Source: a virus. Taken from it: a DNA stretch of 32,266 bases. Positions within the stretch are counted from its first letter, which is position 1. Every line of letters begins with the position of its first letter. The notes below the pieces were generated by a model, which was not told the DNA's origin, did not search any database, and saw only the letters and a list, made by a program, of their open reading frames with translations. A program made the translations under genes and the position numbers. This document shows positions 158 through 32,266 of this stretch, in pieces. The DNA is taken from positions 1-32,266 of IMG/VR virus record IMGVR_UViG_3300037517_000941; one strand, written 5' to 3'.

Positions 158-550
158 TTGTCCGTTTTCGTTCAGTTGTATTTCATCAATAGTTTTTTGA
201 ACTTCCGACATGGACTGCATTATTTCACTTCCGTTGGTCAGGTCATTGACAATTTTTGTCAAGTCAATAGTCAGGGTTTTGCGGATGTATTCCTGATGCA
301 ACATTGAAACCAACCGAGTAATGCTTTCTCCTGTGTAGTAGTTGTTCAGTCCTGCGATGTCCATTGCCATATCCCGGTGCTTCATTACCACCGCCACGTT
401 GTCGATGTGTTCGTTGTTCAGGTACATCGCCTGAATGGTCAAACATAGGGTGCGGTATTTTGGCACGGTGAACCATTCACTGCGTACCGTTGCGGTAAGG
501 TCAAGCTGCTTACCTTGCAACCACGTTCCGAGTATTTGTTGCTCAATCAT
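1..550 (-). CDS. dnaB: replicative DNA helicase, DnaB family (N-terminal part; continues at 32109)
   Basis: This is the first 183 codons of the phage replicative helicase; the remainder is at 31424-32266, where the circle closes. It starts at ATG 550-548, overlapping the stop of the upstream gene by ATGA, so the two are translationally coupled. The N-terminal part is the helical DnaB N-domain (reads MIEQQILGTWLQ at the start) and the linker follows. Walker A lies at about residues 181-189, right at the left edge of the window. Joined length is 411 aa, slightly shorter than cellular DnaB (about 450-470 aa). It would unwind DNA at the fork, loaded by the protein encoded just upstream. Confidence 0.93.
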   Translation of the reverse strand, partial: MIEQQILGTWLQGKQLDLTATVRSEWFTVPKYRTLCLTIQAMYLNNEHIDNVAVVMKHRDMAMDIAGLNNYYTGESITRLVSMLHQEYIRKTLTIDLTKIVNDLTNGSEIMQSMSEVQKTIDEIQLNENGQAVDLITLLGDSFDNLEKRSKSEIKTIGLPTGFTRLDKYIGGFVPGENVVVAG

Positions 551-1143
551 GGTAAATAATTTATGGCCTTCGCCTGTTCAACTTCCATAGGTTTCAAAAA
601 TGGGATGGTGTTTGCAAGTTTGGTTTTCCAGTTCTTAATCTTTTTTCCGTGACCATCCACCCACCCGGCTTCCACCCATTGATTGTATTTGGCTTCAATA
701 GGGTAACGATAACCGGGTTTCAGTCCTTTCATTCCGTATTCGCAAAATTCTTCAAGCGTAGGTATTGTATTTGTATTTCTTTTTTTATTTACAATTACAT
801 TTTCATTTTCATTTTCCATATGTTTAACATATGTTTTTGATATGTTATTCATATCTTTTTTTATTCTGTTATTCCTACGACTTTCGGAATATGCCTTACG
901 TTTTTGAACTTCCGCAGACAACCTTTCATTCAGGTAGTTACCATTTTCATCCTTTACAAACTTTGAAAATATATCTTCATCATATGTGCCACATATCTGT
1001 AACATATCTTTTTCAGTCAGTATGCCTTTTTGGTGTTGTAGGCATAGCAGGGTAATGTATTTTCCTTTTTGTTCCATAGTCAAAAGCATTGTTCCGGTCA
1101 GGAAGTCGCTGGAATAAAATAGGAATGCTGGGTCTTTGCTCAT
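547..1143 (-). CDS. replisome organizer / helicase loader-like protein
   Basis: 198 aa. The N-terminus (DPAFLFYSSDFLTGTMLLT, then a KGKYITLL stretch) resembles the YdaU/DUF1376-type start of phage replication proteins, with a basic, Asn-rich linker at about 95-130 and a C-terminal region rich in Trp and Lys. It ends in an ATGA overlap with dnaB, which is the classical place for an origin-binding protein or helicase loader. The gene contains two arrays of 11-bp repeats (817-860 and 970-1013) that are out of phase with codons, as in lambda gene O, where the origin lies inside the initiator gene. The function is inferred from N-terminal pattern and context; there is no catalytic motif. Confidence 0.6.
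   Translation of the reverse strand: MSKDPAFLFYSSDFLTGTMLLTMEQKGKYITLLCLQHQKGILTEKDMLQICGTYDEDIFSKFVKDENGNYLNERLSAEVQKRKAYSESRRNNRIKKDMNNISKTYVKHMENENENVIVNKKRNTNTIPTLEEFCEYGMKGLKPGYRYPIEAKYNQWVEAGWVDGHGKKIKNWKTKLANTIPFLKPMEVEQAKAINYLP
817..860. repeat. iteron array 1, four 11-bp repeats
   Basis: The hexamers CATATG (817), CATATG (828), GATATG (839) and CATATC (850) are spaced exactly 11 bp apart, each followed by a short T-rich tract. The period is not a multiple of three, so it cannot come from a protein repeat and points to selection on the DNA. About one helical turn per repeat places all copies on one face and phases the A/T tracts, as in initiator binding sites or bent DNA. The array lies inside the putative replisome organizer gene, so it is a candidate origin. 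Confidence 0.7.
970..1013. repeat. iteron array 2, four 11-bp repeats
   Basis: TATATC (970), CATATG (981), CATATC (992) and CATATC (1003) again repeat every 11 bp. The core is the same as in array 1, which lies about 110 bp away. The coding phase differs in successive copies. The two arrays together give eight copies of CATATS-like units within 200 bp. Confidence 0.65.
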
Positions 1144-1516: not shown

Positions 1517-1735
1517 TTATTCGTTACAATATTGTTGATTTTCGTGGTAATCAATGTCGCTTTGTTCGTCACGTTCCCATTCAATCGTCTGGGTGATGTA
1601 CCATTGCCATCCCTTTTCCCATTCTTTAAACTCATCGGAGTTTAATTCAAAAGGATTTTCGCCTTCGGTTTCGTAGTAATTAAACTGCTGACTGGCTATC
1701 CAGCCCATTTCAAAAGGTGTTTTTGTGTTTTCCAT
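1517..1735 (-). CDS. small RMF/CrpP-like protein
   Basis: 72 aa, acidic, Trp-rich. The pattern F..GW.A...F, then NPFELNSDEFKEWEKGWQW, resembles the small ribosome modulation factor/CrpP-like fold (GW.A...NP......W..GW), often found in phages with unknown function. It is the first gene of the leftward early block, expressed from the TATATTTG promoter directly abutting its ATG. Binding to ribosomes or RNA is only inferred from the fold resemblance. Confidence 0.5.
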   Translation of the reverse strand: MENTKTPFEMGWIASQQFNYYETEGENPFELNSDEFKEWEKGWQWYITQTIEWERDEQSDIDYHENQQYCNE

Positions 1736-1769
1736 GCTGCAAATATAATATAGAAAACTATACTTGCAA
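1736..1769 (-). promoter_or_regulatory. early promoter, Bacteroidota type
   Basis: On the minus strand: TTG (1769-1767), 19-bp spacer, TATATTTG (1747-1740), then CAGC and the ATG at 1735. This matches the Bacteroidota consensus TTTG/TTG-N19-TAnnTTTG. The transcript would start at or next to the ATG, giving a leaderless mRNA. Confidence 0.7.
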
Positions 1770-1798
1770 TAGTTTTTGTTAAATTATTTTTATCAAAG

Positions 1799-1807
1799 TT
1801 ATCCACA
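1799..1807 (+). other. DnaA box
   Basis: TTATCCACA is an exact match to the strict DnaA-box consensus and sits in AT-rich intergenic DNA. The phage encodes its own DnaA domain IV protein (30940-31395), which supplies a plausible binder besides host DnaA. Only one perfect copy was noticed here. Confidence 0.55.
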
Positions 1808-1846
1808 ATATAAGAATATCGAACTTTTACGAATAAACTTTGTGCA

Positions 1847-2116
1847 GTGAAGAAGCATACGAAGGTATATCTTGACCATTTCGGCTATGACAAAAGTGAT
1901 TTCATCCCTTGTGAGGTGTGTGGCGCACAAGCTGTGGACATTCACCATATCGAAGCCCGGGGGATGGGTGGAAGCAAACACGCTGATGTGATTGAAAACC
2001 TGATGGCGTTATGTAGAAAAGACCATGCCCGATACGGGGATAACAAGTCATTCAAAGATTGGCTCAAAAAAGTTCACGCACTTAAACTTGAACAGGCGCA
2101 CAGAGATACTGATTGA
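1847..2116 (+). CDS. HNH endonuclease
   Basis: 89 aa, GTG start. The motif CEVCG (about 23-27), then DIHHIEARGMGG (about 31-42), then NLMALCRKDHARYGD is a compact HNH nuclease: a Cys pair for zinc, the catalytic His pair and the C-terminal N...H. It is the first gene on the plus strand. HNH proteins often sit near terminases in phages; here it is separated from terminase by about 5.5 kb and could equally be a free-standing nicking or homing enzyme. The downstream gene overlaps its 3' end. Confidence 0.85.
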   Translation: MKKHTKVYLDHFGYDKSDFIPCEVCGAQAVDIHHIEARGMGGSKHADVIENLMALCRKDHARYGDNKSFKDWLKKVHALKLEQAHRDTD

Positions 2117-2621
2117 GTTAGCCAATTCCAAATGGCTTCCTGACTTCTGTAATAAAATTGGAAGTCATGTCGCTGCCGACCTACAACAACACCTTTTGCT
2201 AATATGCTGTGAAATGGATGCCGACCGCCTGATACAACTGCACCAAAGCAATGGACTGGTGTACTACCTTGTCCGGGTGGGGTGCAATGCGGTCAACGGC
2301 AACAGATACACAAAGTTTTATCGGGACTTTATCCGTTCAATGGATCCGCTGCCTGATGAATACGATGAGGAAGCCGAGGACTACGATGAAACCCACCTGC
2401 GTAAAAAACAAGAAGCGGTGCAATCGGTAAACTTCAAAGAGGTGGCTAATCACTTTAACCGTTCCGAATGGTACGTGGTTAAACTATGGCAGCTATGGGA
2501 AGACAAACAAAGCATGGCATTGATGGCCCGGGAAACGAAAATCAATTACCGGGAGATTAGCCAAATCATAAACGCAATCAAAACACAAATCAAAGAAAAA
2601 TATAATGAATACGATGACTGA
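2088..2621 (+). CDS. sigma-70-like / HTH transcription regulator
   Basis: 177 aa from TTG 2088; an ATG at 2025 is possible but would overlap the HNH gene by 92 nt. The N-half (KWLPDFCNKI, then DLQQHLLLICCEMDADRLIQLHQSNGLVYYLVRVGCNAV) resembles the sigma region 2-like part of small phage sigma-type proteins in Bacteroidota phages. An acidic linker (PDEYDEEAEDYDE) follows, then a helical C-terminal region (EVANHFNRSEWYVVKLWQLW and YREISQIINAIK) that looks like helix-turn-helix. The assignment is by pattern and context; a DNA-binding protein without sigma activity is the main alternative. It could recognise the CTACTTTTATAGATAG element found at six genes. Confidence 0.5.
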   Translation: MNRRTEILIELANSKWLPDFCNKIGSHVAADLQQHLLLICCEMDADRLIQLHQSNGLVYYLVRVGCNAVNGNRYTKFYRDFIRSMDPLPDEYDEEAEDYDETHLRKKQEAVQSVNFKEVANHFNRSEWYVVKLWQLWEDKQSMALMARETKINYREISQIINAIKTQIKEKYNEYDD

Positions 2622-3899: not shown

Positions 3900-4503
3900 A
3901 TCACCTATCACGGGCAAGGTAGCCAAAAAGGCATTTGTCAAAGGTGGTGTGCAATACTACACCGATGACTTGTTAAACATCTTCTGCAAAAAGTTAGACC
4001 AATCAGGCATGGTGGGCGGTGGCAAAGAAGATGAACGCAATGCCGATGAGTTAAACCAAACCCGATTGGAACGCATCCGCAAAATATCAGGAAAGGATAA
4101 CCCCACCATTTTAGATTACGGCTGCGGCACTGGTTTAATGGTTACTTTTATGCAGGATGCTGGTATTGATTGCGATGGTTATGACCCTTATAACGGATAT
4201 TATGCCGATGTTTTATCCCTTAAAAAGGACTATGATGTAATTGTGCTGACCGAGGTAATAGAACACCTGACAGCACCATTTGCCGAGTTGGCCGAAATAA
4301 AAGAGTTCTGCCACCCCGGTAGTAAGATAATGATTGAGACATCCTTTGCAGATTGGCTGACCGAAAATGACGAATACATTGAACCAGCCGTTGGTCATTG
4401 CACAATTTTCAGCCATGCCGGGCTTGACCATTTGATGGCGCAGTTCGGTTTTGTTCCTGACAATCACATCAACAGAAACGTAAGAATATATGCAGTGGGT
4501 TAA
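3886..4503 (+). CDS. class I SAM-dependent methyltransferase
   Basis: 205 aa. Motif I ILDYGCGTGLMVTF at about 75-88, the acidic loop GYDPYN at about 97-102, and VIVLTEVIEHL at about 118-128 are typical of UbiG-like class I methyltransferases acting on small molecules or sugars. The N-terminal 60 residues are basic and may be an added substrate-binding segment. It lies between the GT9-like glycosyltransferase and a DNA methyltransferase fusion. It lacks DNA-methylase motif IV, so DNA is unlikely to be the target; a glycan or peptide is plausible. Confidence 0.75.
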   Translation: MSKTKSPITGKVAKKAFVKGGVQYYTDDLLNIFCKKLDQSGMVGGGKEDERNADELNQTRLERIRKISGKDNPTILDYGCGTGLMVTFMQDAGIDCDGYDPYNGYYADVLSLKKDYDVIVLTEVIEHLTAPFAELAEIKEFCHPGSKIMIETSFADWLTENDEYIEPAVGHCTIFSHAGLDHLMAQFGFVPDNHINRNVRIYAVG

Positions 4504-5731
4504 ATTAACACAGGTTCGGCCAAACCCGAACAATCCCCGTGTCATCCGGGATGATAAGTTTGCAAAGTTGAAGCAGTCAATTATTGACTTTCCTGAAATG
4601 CTGGAAAAGCGGCCTTTGGTTTGCTATACCGAAGGCGAACATTACATCGTGCTGGGTGGCAATATGCGACTGAAAGCATTATCGGATATTGGTGCAAAAG
4701 AGATACCGATTATTTTGGCAGACGAATGGACACAAGAACAACGGGCGCAGTTTCTGATTAAGGACAACGTGGGCTTCGGTGAGTGGGATTGGAACGCACT
4801 TGCAAACGAATGGGATGCAGAGAAATTAACAGAGTGGGGTTTGGATTTGCCACCAATGGATGCAATAGAGTTGGAAGCAGAAGAAGATGATTACGAAATG
4901 CCCGATGAATTGCAGACAGATATTGTGCTGGGTGATTTATTTGAAATTGGTGAGCATAGGTTGCTTTGTGGGGATAGTACAGATAGCGATGCGGTTGCAA
5001 GGTTGATGGATGGTGTAAACGATGCCTTTTGTTTTACATCACCACCATATAATGCCGGGGATAGTGCAAAGTTATCGGGAAATATGGCAAGTGCGAATAG
5101 AGCAAATTTATATCAATCATACGATGACGAACAAAGTCCCAATGATTGGAAGCAATTATGCATAGCGACCATAAACAATGCTATGATGCATTGCAAAGTT
5201 GTCGCATACAACATACAAATGTTGGCGAACAATAAGATAGCATTCCTGTCATTGCTTAATGACTACAAACAAAATCTTATTGATATTGCAATTTGGAATA
5301 AGGAACACGCTGCACCTCATGTGGCTGAAAATGTAATGGCAAGTACTTTTGAATTTATTTTGTTTTTATCACCAAAAACAAATCCTACGAAAGCAATTAC
5401 TACTGGTAAATTTAGGGCGGTACAAAATGTATATTCTGCACCACCGCAGAGAAACAATGAATTTGCAAAACATCACGGTGCAACATTTCCAATGCATTTG
5501 CCCGAATGGGTGATTAAAACATTCACCACCAATCAACCAGTGCTTGATTTATTTTGTGGAACAGGAACCACAATGGCTGCTTCACACCAACTTAAACGCA
5601 AGTGCTACGGAATGGAACTTGACCCGAAATACTGCCAAGTAATTATCGACCGAATGATTAAACTTGACCCGACACTTGAAATCAAACGTAACGGGCAAAC
5701 TTACAACCGACAAACAACCGATGGCCAATAA
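4490..5731 (+). CDS. ParB-like nuclease domain fused to DNA methyltransferase
   Basis: 413 aa. Residues 1-95 form a ParB/Srx-like domain (VRPNPNNPR, then VLGGNMRLKAL at about 54-64). Residues about 145-390 form a DNA methyltransferase with GDLFEIGEHRLLCGDS, catalytic TSPPYN (about 183-188) and SAM-binding DLFCGTGTTMA (about 351-361). Motif IV before motif I defines the beta class; TSPPY favours N4-cytosine but N6-adenine is possible. Such fusions are common in phages and probably protect phage DNA from host restriction. No cognate restriction gene is adjacent. The stop is overlapped by the start of the next gene. Confidence 0.88.
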   Translation: MQWVKLTQVRPNPNNPRVIRDDKFAKLKQSIIDFPEMLEKRPLVCYTEGEHYIVLGGNMRLKALSDIGAKEIPIILADEWTQEQRAQFLIKDNVGFGEWDWNALANEWDAEKLTEWGLDLPPMDAIELEAEEDDYEMPDELQTDIVLGDLFEIGEHRLLCGDSTDSDAVARLMDGVNDAFCFTSPPYNAGDSAKLSGNMASANRANLYQSYDDEQSPNDWKQLCIATINNAMMHCKVVAYNIQMLANNKIAFLSLLNDYKQNLIDIAIWNKEHAAPHVAENVMASTFEFILFLSPKTNPTKAITTGKFRAVQNVYSAPPQRNNEFAKHHGATFPMHLPEWVIKTFTTNQPVLDLFCGTGTTMAASHQLKRKCYGMELDPKYCQVIIDRMIKLDPTLEIKRNGQTYNRQTTDGQ

Positions 5732-30319: not shown

Positions 30320-30943
30320 TTAAAATATACGCAACTGGGCTGCAAAATCTTTGTATCTTTTTTCTGCTGCTGCAAAATAATCATGGTCAAGTTCGCACCC
30401 GATAAAATCAAGTCCTGCTTTATGTGCGGAAATTCTGCTGCTGCCACTTCCCAAATGGGTGTCCAGTATTTTATCGCCTTGCTTTGCGTAGTTCTTAAAA
30501 ATCCAATCGTAAAGAGCAACTGGTTTTTGAGTTGGGTGTATTTTATGGGTTTGGTTATGTTTGTGGATTGAATACCTATAAATTTTAGCTGGTTTTTTCA
30601 ATCCCATAGAAACCCAAGCATATTCAGCAGAAGCAAAATTATCAACTGTTTGTGCTTTATCCCATATTAAAAAATACTCGCTTGGTGGCATTACAAAATT
30701 ATTTGCACCCCAAACTATTTGATTTTTTGAAACTCTAAATAATTCGTTAAAATATTCTTCAGTAGGTTTTTTATCCCATTCTAATTTATCTTTATAATTT
30801 CCTTTAACACCACCTAATCTTAAACTACCTTTTTGTAGTCTTTCTAAACCATAAGGCGGGTCAACAACTGCCAAATCAAAATACTTGTCAGGATAGCGTG
30901 ACATTAAGGCCATGCAGTCCTCGTTGTAAACTTCACTTATCAT
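30320..30943 (-). CDS. DNA methyltransferase, beta class (N6-adenine likely)
   Basis: 207 aa. VYNEDCMALM start, catalytic DPPYG (28-32), HPTQKP (136-141) and SAM-binding ILDTHLGSGSSRIS (159-172), then GCELDHDYF. The order DPPY before the SAM motif defines the beta class. It probably methylates adenine in a short DNA motif, protecting phage DNA; the region between the motifs (about 35-125), which includes target recognition, is more AT-rich in DNA than the flanks. The start overlaps the DnaA-like gene by ATGA. Confidence 0.9.
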   Translation of the reverse strand: MISEVYNEDCMALMSRYPDKYFDLAVVDPPYGLERLQKGSLRLGGVKGNYKDKLEWDKKPTEEYFNELFRVSKNQIVWGANNFVMPPSEYFLIWDKAQTVDNFASAEYAWVSMGLKKPAKIYRYSIHKHNQTHKIHPTQKPVALYDWIFKNYAKQGDKILDTHLGSGSSRISAHKAGLDFIGCELDHDYFAAAEKRYKDFAAQLRIF

Positions 30944-31395
30944 ATCTGTTCTGCAAAGTTTTGATAAGCATTTTTCACCGCTTCCACCTTCCGGGCAAAT
31001 GATTTGTCAAAAGTCATCAGGTTGTCCACCGTTTCAATGCTGTGTATCATTGTGGAGTGGTCACGGCCACCGCATATTTGCCCGATTTTTTGCAACGATA
31101 ACGAGGTTTTATGCCGCAAAATCCAAATGAATATTTGCCGCAATTCCAACACCTCACGTTTACGGGCTTTCACCTTGATAAATTCGGGCTGGTAGTACGG
31201 AAATACAGACCTGATTGCAAGGTGTGTGGCCTTGATATGCTCATCATCCTTGTCAATGTCCTGTACTTTCAGCACGGTTTCCAATTCCCTGATGCGGATT
31301 TGCTGGTGTCTGATTACTTCTTTCATTCTGTCGATTTCACTTTGGCGAAATGTTGTGCGGCTGTTGCGCTGTGGTGCTTTTAATTGTGTTCTCAT
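30940..31395 (-). CDS. DnaA domain IV (DNA-binding) protein
   Basis: 151 aa. A coiled coil at about 17-45 precedes a C-terminal domain with SLSLQKIGQICGGRDHSTMIHSIETV (about 98-123), the signature helix of DnaA domain IV that reads the DnaA box. The ATPase domains of DnaA are absent. It lies next to DnaB and has its own early promoter. It could bind the perfect DnaA box at 1799-1807 or interfere with host DnaA. Confidence 0.85.
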   Translation of the reverse strand: MRTQLKAPQRNSRTTFRQSEIDRMKEVIRHQQIRIRELETVLKVQDIDKDDEHIKATHLAIRSVFPYYQPEFIKVKARKREVLELRQIFIWILRHKTSLSLQKIGQICGGRDHSTMIHSIETVDNLMTFDKSFARKVEAVKNAYQNFAEQI

Positions 31396-31430: not shown

Positions 31431-32266
31431 ATATATTCAACTGTTTTACCCATAAAATTGCATTGCAGCGTTCCTGTCATCCCATTACGGCACTTGCTGA
31501 TAATGAGTTCAGCATCTTCAAGTTCAGGTGGATTGCCGCCATTCTTCTGGGCTTCGTAGTAATCAGGTCGGTAAGGGAATAACACCGTGTCCGCATCCTG
31601 TTCTATGGCACCAGACTCCCGAAGGTTTGCCAACTTTGGGCGGCTGTTTCCTTCCTCTGTTCCCCTGTTAAGTTGTGACAAGGGCATCACCGTACATCCG
31701 CATTCTTTGGCTATCAGTTTGCATTGCCGGGATATGTTGGCGATTTCCTGCTCCCGATTTTTACCGCCTGTGCTTTTGACCAACTGCATATAGTCAATGA
31801 TTACCAAAGTGGGTTTTACCTTCATGGTTTTTATTCGGGTTTTGATTTGTGCTATGTCCAGCATTGTGCTGTCCTCTATTTGAAATTTGTAATCAATGAG
31901 CAGTAATTCACGTGCGATATTCTCCAATTCAAATTCATTGACATCAGCGTTTCTCACTTTTAGGTTGTCCACCCGACCAAGGGATGAAAGTATGCGGTCT
32001 GCAAGTTGTTCTTTTGACATCTCCATACTGAACATTATAACCCTGCCACCCAGCTTTGCATGAGCAATCCCGATGCTGACTGCAAATGCTGTCTTACCCA
32101 TGCCGGGCCGACCTGCCACCACCACATTTTCACCGGGAACAAAACCACCGATGTACTTATCCAATCTGGTGAACCCGGTGGGCAATCCAATAGTTTTAAT
32201 TTCGGATTTGCTTCGTTTCTCCAAGTTATCAAAGCGGTCACCGAGTAGAGTAATCAGGTCAACAGC
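31424..32266 (-). CDS. dnaB: replicative DNA helicase, DnaB family (C-terminal part; starts at 550 across the join)
   Basis: Codons about 132-411 of the helicase, including the RecA-like motor: Walker A GRPGMGKT (about 182-189), FSMEMSKEQLADRI, Walker B LVIIDYMQL (about 284-292), the arginine-finger region PLSQLNRG (about 325) and SRPKLANLRESGAIEQDADTV. The set is complete, so the enzyme should be active. The first seven residues of any apparent TTG start at 32224 are an artefact; the true start is at 550. Confidence 0.95.
   Translation of the reverse strand, partial: AVDLITLLGDRFDNLEKRSKSEIKTIGLPTGFTRLDKYIGGFVPGENVVVAGRPGMGKTAFAVSIGIAHAKLGGRVIMFSMEMSKEQLADRILSSLGRVDNLKVRNADVNEFELENIARELLLIDYKFQIEDSTMLDIAQIKTRIKTMKVKPTLVIIDYMQLVKSTGGKNREQEIANISRQCKLIAKECGCTVMPLSQLNRGTEEGNSRPKLANLRESGAIEQDADTVLFPYRPDYYEAQKNGGNPPELEDAELIISKCRNGMTGTLQCNFMGKTVEYIF
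32110..32266. repeat. terminal redundancy, right copy (circular overlap)
   Basis: Same 157 bases as 1-157, with G at 32236 where the left copy has T at 127. Joining the ends at this overlap gives about 32,109 bp. Confidence 0.93.

Follow-up and report, generated by a model that had tools for sequence, protein, structure and literature searches.

A conserved DnaA box at a fixed distance from the rightward promoter of a phage genome: a candidate late-gene switch

Introduction

What is a single, exact DnaA box doing in the divergent gap of a phage genome that also encodes the DNA-reading domain of DnaA? The initial annotation of this locus described the box, in a 111-bp AT-rich gap between leftward and rightward gene blocks, and a protein with only DnaA domain IV, and proposed that the phage either recruits host DnaA to its own origin or competes with it. 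The observation is confirmed and is stronger than had been claimed: the gap is 23.4% GC, the box recurs in the same gap of related phages, and Pfam and structure matches bear out the domain-IV-only protein. Recruitment of host DnaA to a phage origin appears unlikely; the single box tracks the rightward promoter, and repeat arrays sit in the initiator gene. Because the box lies at a fixed distance from the presumed late-gene promoter, a gene switch is the more likely role than a replication start.

Results

Genome Layout and the Divergent Gap

The window (the whole 32,266-nt stretch of DNA that was analysed) is a circular phage genome: its first and last 157 bp agree except at one position, and dnaB spans the circular join. 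The single difference (1–157 against 32110–32266) exchanges Ser and Arg in DnaB and suggests either variation in the population or a mistake in sequencing or assembly. The leftward block comprises the 72-aa first gene, the initiator, dnaB, the DnaA domain IV (DnaA-IV) gene, a methyltransferase, and an Erf-like protein; the rightward block holds the HNH and sigma-like genes, terminase, portal, and others (Table 1). A further predicted protein at 4490–5731 is ParB-like in its N-terminal region and also contains a DNA methyltransferase; it has PHROG matches to both. When genomes were scanned with the sigma-like protein, one cellular record came up, a Flammeovirgaceae MAG contig that looks like a phage, and because that record stands alone we infer, rather than assign, a Bacteroidota host.

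Table 1. Features of the gap, its flanking genes, and the candidate replication region in the window
Feature	Coordinates	Strand	Basis or remark
Replication initiator candidate, primosomal-protein-like	547..1143	-	Weak DUF1376 match
11-bp repeats, CATATG type, inside initiator gene, candidate origin	812..860	-	Repeat search; codon shuffles
Second 11-bp repeat cluster, initiator gene	971..1009	-	Repeat search
72-aa protein, first gene of leftward block	1517..1735	-	ORF list; kept in relatives
Bidirectional promoter region, 111 bp, 23% GC	1736..1846	.	GC count, relatives
Leftward -7 element TATATTTG, full consensus	1740..1747	-	PMC6847099 consensus; predicted +1 is the A of ATG (1735)
Leftward TTG, candidate -33 element (-34 to -32)	1767..1769	-	Sequence
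DnaA box TTATCCACA, -48 to -40 of rightward start	1799..1807	+	Sequence, relatives
Rightward -7-like element AAACTTTG	1835..1842	+	PMC6847099 consensus save A for T at -12
HNH protein, first gene of rightward block, GTG start	1847..2116	+	PF01844, 9.5e-07
Sigma-like two-domain helical protein, 177 aa, second gene of rightward block	2088..2621	+	TTG start; longer ORF from 2025
DnaA domain IV-only protein, 151 aa, leftward (putatively early) block	30940..31395	-	Pfam, alignment, structure model

The gap is bordered by an ATG at 1735 on the minus strand and a GTG at 1847 on the plus strand, and its GC content compares with 42.6% for the window. Its box, TTATCCACA, matches the strict bacterial DnaA box consensus. 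The looser pattern TTATNCACA occurs once in the 32,266 bases, at this box, against 1.97 expected, so the genome-wide number is not unusual; within the gap the box is unusual, TTATCCACA arising in just 6 of 20,000 dinucleotide shuffles of the 111 bp. With one TTATNCACA per window genome, there is no oriC-like cluster of boxes, and a search of the gap for iterons or further boxes turned up just a weak 14-bp two-copy repeat (1773–1802). A second box overlapping the first (TTTTACACA) is found in two members (loci L005 and L045) and is not conserved.

Conservation of the Box in Relatives

Relatives were gathered in two ways. An IMG/VR scan with the DnaA-IV protein gave 51 loci, of which 16 were left out for want of one gap flank; TTATCCACA is intact in 34 of the 35 with both flanks, the exception (L048) reading TTATCAACA. 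An IMG/VR scan by a pattern of the gap that accepted any base at the nine box positions gave 57 contigs, and TTATCCACA is present in 56 of these gaps, L048 again being the sole exception. The two sets share many contigs and include near-duplicates; the first comes down to 22 distinct gap sequences, counting the window, and the second to 32 distinct stretches of 140 bp. The search for the box in the same gap of related phages, which the initial annotation had put forward as a check, came out in its favour among these relatives. Of 33 distinct cores, 31 have a gap of 111 bp and the other two have gaps of 100 and 121 bp, and mean information content over 31 distinct cores is 1.98 bits per column in the box versus 1.72 in the rest of the gap. 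As the whole gap is highly conserved, the box stands out just modestly among close relatives.

Distant members are more telling than close ones. L135, L137, and L138, whose identities to the window are 68%–72% for HNH, 38%–43% for the first gene, and 64%–66% for the sigma-like protein, carry TTATCAACA, as does the MAG contig L184, and two other distant members (L140, L145) retain TTATCCACA. In these loci the box varies at position 6 alone, and there between C and A alone; the variant lies at L135:2380, L137:3099, and L138:5952, and also in L048 and L184. We could not link TTATCAACA in these five loci to changes in DnaA-IV, as L138 alone among them yielded a full protein and this keeps GGRDHST. 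The MAG of L184 has 107 TTATCMACA sites versus 60 for the reversed control. Among 60 HNH relatives below 79% identity (L124–L183), the box or its variant is kept in five; the other 55 have no TTWTNCACA (the C form) in the stretch searched upstream, up to about 200 bp and shorter in five.

The initial annotation also paired the box with the DnaA-like protein. In 25 gap-bearing records (the 24 longer ones of the 57, plus the window), TTATCCACA occurs exactly once in each and the DnaA-IV gene in 22, including all 14 longer than 20 kb; the three that lack it are fragments shorter than 20 kb. Judged by the refuting case that the initial annotation named (DnaA-like gene kept, box missing), the pairing therefore stands among close relatives, which keep both. 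It fails in a distant DnaA-IV group, whose proteins are 27%–36% identical by tblastn (one truncated match, 45%): of 11 such loci scanned for TTWTNMACA near the gene pair, eight have none, and the remaining three have it elsewhere or within the sigma-like gene. Since this group keeps DnaA-IV without a nearby box, reader and box are not universally paired.

Two cultured phages, Flavobacterium Muminvirus tooticki and Polaribacter P12002L, likewise have small annotated DnaA-IV proteins outside the structural-gene block, in P12002L near a primosomal gene. They differ in that identity is about 33%–36% over half the protein and the gap-box arrangement is absent from both: P12002L has zero TTWTNCACA in its genome, and the one TTATCCACA of M. 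tooticki (4644–4652) lies inside a gene. The model developed below is for this reason not anchored in a cultured phage.

Promoters and Spacing

In Bacteroidota the -7 element reads TAHHTTTG; its first T falls at -12, the following A at -11, and TTTG spans -8 to -5 (PMC6847099). The leftward element fits this consensus; the rightward elements (AAACTTTG or AAAATTTG) do not, having A at -12 in 39 of 39 loci (distinct first loci, counted by hand after filtering for A at -11 and TTTG with the -12 base free). Because A replaces the nearly invariant T, the rightward promoter should, from its sequence, be weak alone. We dropped the absence of a -33 element as proof of this weakness, since the -33 motif is described in the same source as much less evident in Flavobacterium johnsoniae (PMC6847099), and kept the A at -12 as evidence. 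The predicted rightward +1 is the G of the GTG start, so that each of the two divergent messages is predicted to begin at the first base of its start codon, without a leader; leaderless mRNAs are uncommon in Bacteroidota, making up 5.5% of mapped mRNAs in F. psychrophilum (PMC9723704).

The box is centred at -44 of the rightward start. Its first base lies 36 bp from the rightward -12 in 35 of the 39 loci and 37 bp from it in the other four. On the left, box and promoter element are mostly 59 bp apart, with 58, 48, and 69 bp in others and 68 bp in L184. In the close lineage of L113, L118, and L017 the left side alone is 11 bp shorter and the box stays at -44. Genes have been gained between the gap and HNH (L011, L017, L023, L039) and between the gap and the first leftward gene (L031, L108, L145), all of them outside the promoter-box-promoter unit. 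This combination of fixed right spacing, variable left spacing, and outside insertions indicates that it is the rightward promoter to which selection ties the box. The left-hand distances differ by nearly whole turns of the helix, which may hint at contact with the left promoter as well and to that extent speaks against the reading below; we put no weight on it.

With moderate confidence, we favour the view that the box serves a leaderless late promoter as its activator site and that DnaA-IV, putatively made early in infection, reads it.

The Putative Reader of the Box

The 151-aa protein matches Pfam Bac_DnaA_C (2.6e-16) and, up to E = 0.1, nothing else in Pfam; an AAA+ domain III was accordingly not found in it by Pfam. 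Its structure model, a long N-terminal helix (12–43, low confidence) followed by domain IV, superimposes on the domain IV structures 1j1v and 3pvp at 1.4–1.5 Å (target-normalised TM 0.87–0.90), and its helix-turn-helix bears the DnaA signature GGRDH[ST]. In the 1j1v alignment, with E. coli DnaA residue numbers assigned by hand, the phage protein is identical at R399, R407, Q408, L422, D433, H434, and T436 and has serine for T435; for all of these save R399 and T435 we presume the roles generally ascribed to them in DnaA. T435 reads bases and R399 and S400 lie in the minor groove (PMC9638019). Two proteins (L031:4649–5104 and L073:3965–4420) are mosaics, of the window type to about residue 115 and of the other type from there to the C-terminus, suggesting that recombination took place inside the recognition helix.

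The recognition motif GGRDHST is constant throughout the close group, and the DnaA of the Flammeovirgaceae MAG has it too. Phage DnaA-IV and host-type DnaA could thus both bind the box, and host DnaA might read it and activate or repress the rightward promoter, so that late transcription would follow the replication cycle of the host or the amount of free DnaA. The retention of GGRDHST by the MAG DnaA is consistent with this, as is the strict bacterial consensus of the box. DnaA is a known activator and repressor (PMC8203912, whose reference list includes DnaA-stimulated activation of ori-lambda). A DnaA box near a promoter and a DnaA helix-turn-helix are what our locus shares with that precedent; the proposed reader differs in being a phage domain IV alone, with no ATPase switch. 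Host DnaA acting alone would have no need of a phage domain IV gene, and such a gene is present in 14 of 14 gap-bearing records above 20 kb. We consider control by host DnaA unlikely and favour activation by phage DnaA-IV.

Repeat Arrays in the Initiator Gene

Were the gap an origin or an accessory origin site, host DnaA would help to open its AT-rich DNA and to load the phage DnaB. The gap is AT-rich, adjoins the block of dnaB and initiator, and holds a strict box, and some plasmid origins have just one DnaA box. Cumulative GC skew reaches its minimum near the gap, though divergent transcription gives the same pattern. Against an origin in the gap are the lone box, a spacing that tracks the rightward promoter, and the repeat arrays of the initiator gene.

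A tandem-repeat search over 21 loci found five types of array in the initiator slot (CATATG, GAAACGCAGAT, AAACGACAATC, TGTTAA, and ATAAAGCAAATA). In nine examples the array sits between an N-terminal domain that varies with it and one of two C-terminal domains, and close relatives (window 547–1143; L007, L014, L027, L039, L013) have initiators mixed from exchangeable domains with matching arrays. Codon-preserving shuffles reached a period of 11 in 0 of 1,000 trials for L007 and L014 and, more weakly, in 17 of 1,000 for the window; the arrays of L027 and L039 have codon-multiple periods with no significant 11-bp period and are therefore indistinguishable from protein-level repeats. As 11 is not a multiple of the codon, these results indicate that at least some arrays are DNA signals, and they are most simply read as origins swapped together with their initiators. 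The gap box stays unchanged while arrays and domains are exchanged. The repeat array within the initiator gene is the most likely place for replication to start, and we reject the gap as origin as the main reading (one box, rightward spacing, arrays elsewhere), judging it quite improbable.

Origins of the lambda O type have iterons inside the initiator gene. The likeness here is of repeats in the linker of a two-domain initiator beside a helicase gene; it concerns the candidate origin at 812–1009 and not the gap, and differs in the several interchangeable domain and repeat types.

A Candidate Sigma-Like Partner

The second rightward gene encodes a protein one homologue of which matches Sigma70_r2 weakly (0.012) and another a sigma PHROG at 0.0016. 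Its model has a mean pLDDT of 77. Sigma factors occupy nearly all of the first 31 Foldseek rows, with a best E of 0.068 and hence no match below 0.05, and VIA Z is at most 8.3, in the range that the tool deems common for helical models. No Pfam match to DUF6456 was found in the protein at E ≤ 10.

In a related phage group, all 17 records with both genes have DnaA-IV immediately before the sigma-like gene, with 193–196 bp from the DnaA-IV domain match to the next match. These belong to 25 records picked from the distant HNH loci L124–L183, mostly ones that already showed either gene, so that co-occurrence is biased: the sigma-like gene is present in 21, DnaA-IV in 18, and neither in four. One of the 18 is the record of L138, which is of the window type and has the two genes apart. 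DnaA-IV without the sigma-like gene occurs in none of the 25, and the sigma-like gene alone in three (a record that ends just upstream of the gene, one of 17.9 kb, and one of 29 kb).

Competition, the second proposal of the initial annotation, would have DnaA-IV mainly blocking the boxes of the host oriC, the phage box being a side target or a feedback site for its own operon. A DNA-reading domain without AAA+ could act as such a competitor, and yet the fixed spacing to the rightward promoter and the adjacency to the sigma-like gene in related phages would both go unexplained; we think this unlikely, although the DHST reading residues are shared with the Flammeovirgaceae DnaA. That the box is there by chance, as the roughly two TTATNCACA expected in the window might allow, is scarcely credible given its retention in 56 of 57 gaps, even with the modest contrast in information content.

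Discussion

The activator reading can be set out as a sequence of steps. The leftward promoter, with its full Bacteroidota housekeeping consensus, would drive the early replication block including DnaA-IV. The rightward promoter keeps TTTG at -8 to -5 and has A at -12, and would be weak unaided. Early-made DnaA-IV would bind TTATCCACA at -44 and recruit RNA polymerase through a putative activation surface, and the late operon would then yield the HNH and sigma-like proteins and the packaging, head, and tail genes. The sigma-like protein is perhaps a co-reader of the box with DnaA-IV and may strengthen late transcription or extend it. The observations comprise conservation, spacing, promoter elements, gene order, and domain identity; DnaA-IV binding to the box, activation by that binding, the early and late timing, and the sigma-like role are what we infer from them.

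A related arrangement is known from gene transfer agents (GTAs). GafY, a homologue of DnaA domain IV, activates GTA genes with the sigma-like GafZ, which works as an antiterminator; GafY is proposed not to act via oriC and binds upstream of the GTA promoter, contacting RpoD (PMC9632790, PMC11150451). GafA is a fusion of both domains with DUF6456 as its C-terminal family (PMC9638019), and is also reported in roseophages (PMC9638019, PMC6363796). Our phages share with the GafY/GafZ pair of Caulobacter, and with GafA in Rhodobacter, a small DnaA-IV-like DNA-binding protein as putative activator, perhaps a sigma-like partner, and structural genes of phage type that the two would control, and in the related phage group the two genes are adjacent. 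The differences are several: these are phages with Bacteroidota-type promoters, their sigma-like protein lacks DUF6456 and in the window is encoded in the presumed late operon, and a true DnaA box lies near the promoter, whereas the GafY site is placed at about -120 with IHF. It counts against our model that the known GafY site is not a DnaA box; ACTATG was mutated there. The mechanism would be similar in its working to that of GafY, by analogy rather than by demonstrated family membership. A literature search, with subscription titles mostly outside it, found no control of late promoters by phage DnaA-IV beyond the GafA and GafYZ work.

A broader proposal, which we make tentatively and think somewhat doubtful, is that Bacteroidota phages in general switch on their late genes through a DnaA-IV reader and a sigma-like partner, the operator being in this case a genuine DnaA box. 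If it is true, control of the GafYZ type in GTAs would have branched from a phage strategy that is far older, in which the DNA-reading domain of a replication initiator was turned into an activator of the transition from early to late transcription. The DnaA domain IV gene of P12002L is annotated as a replication initiation protein, and if the one described here is a late-gene activator, annotations of this kind for phage DnaA-IV may name the wrong process. The promoter is short, conserved, and has a single site, and with reader, site, and partner named, the role of a domain-IV-only DnaA becomes directly testable.
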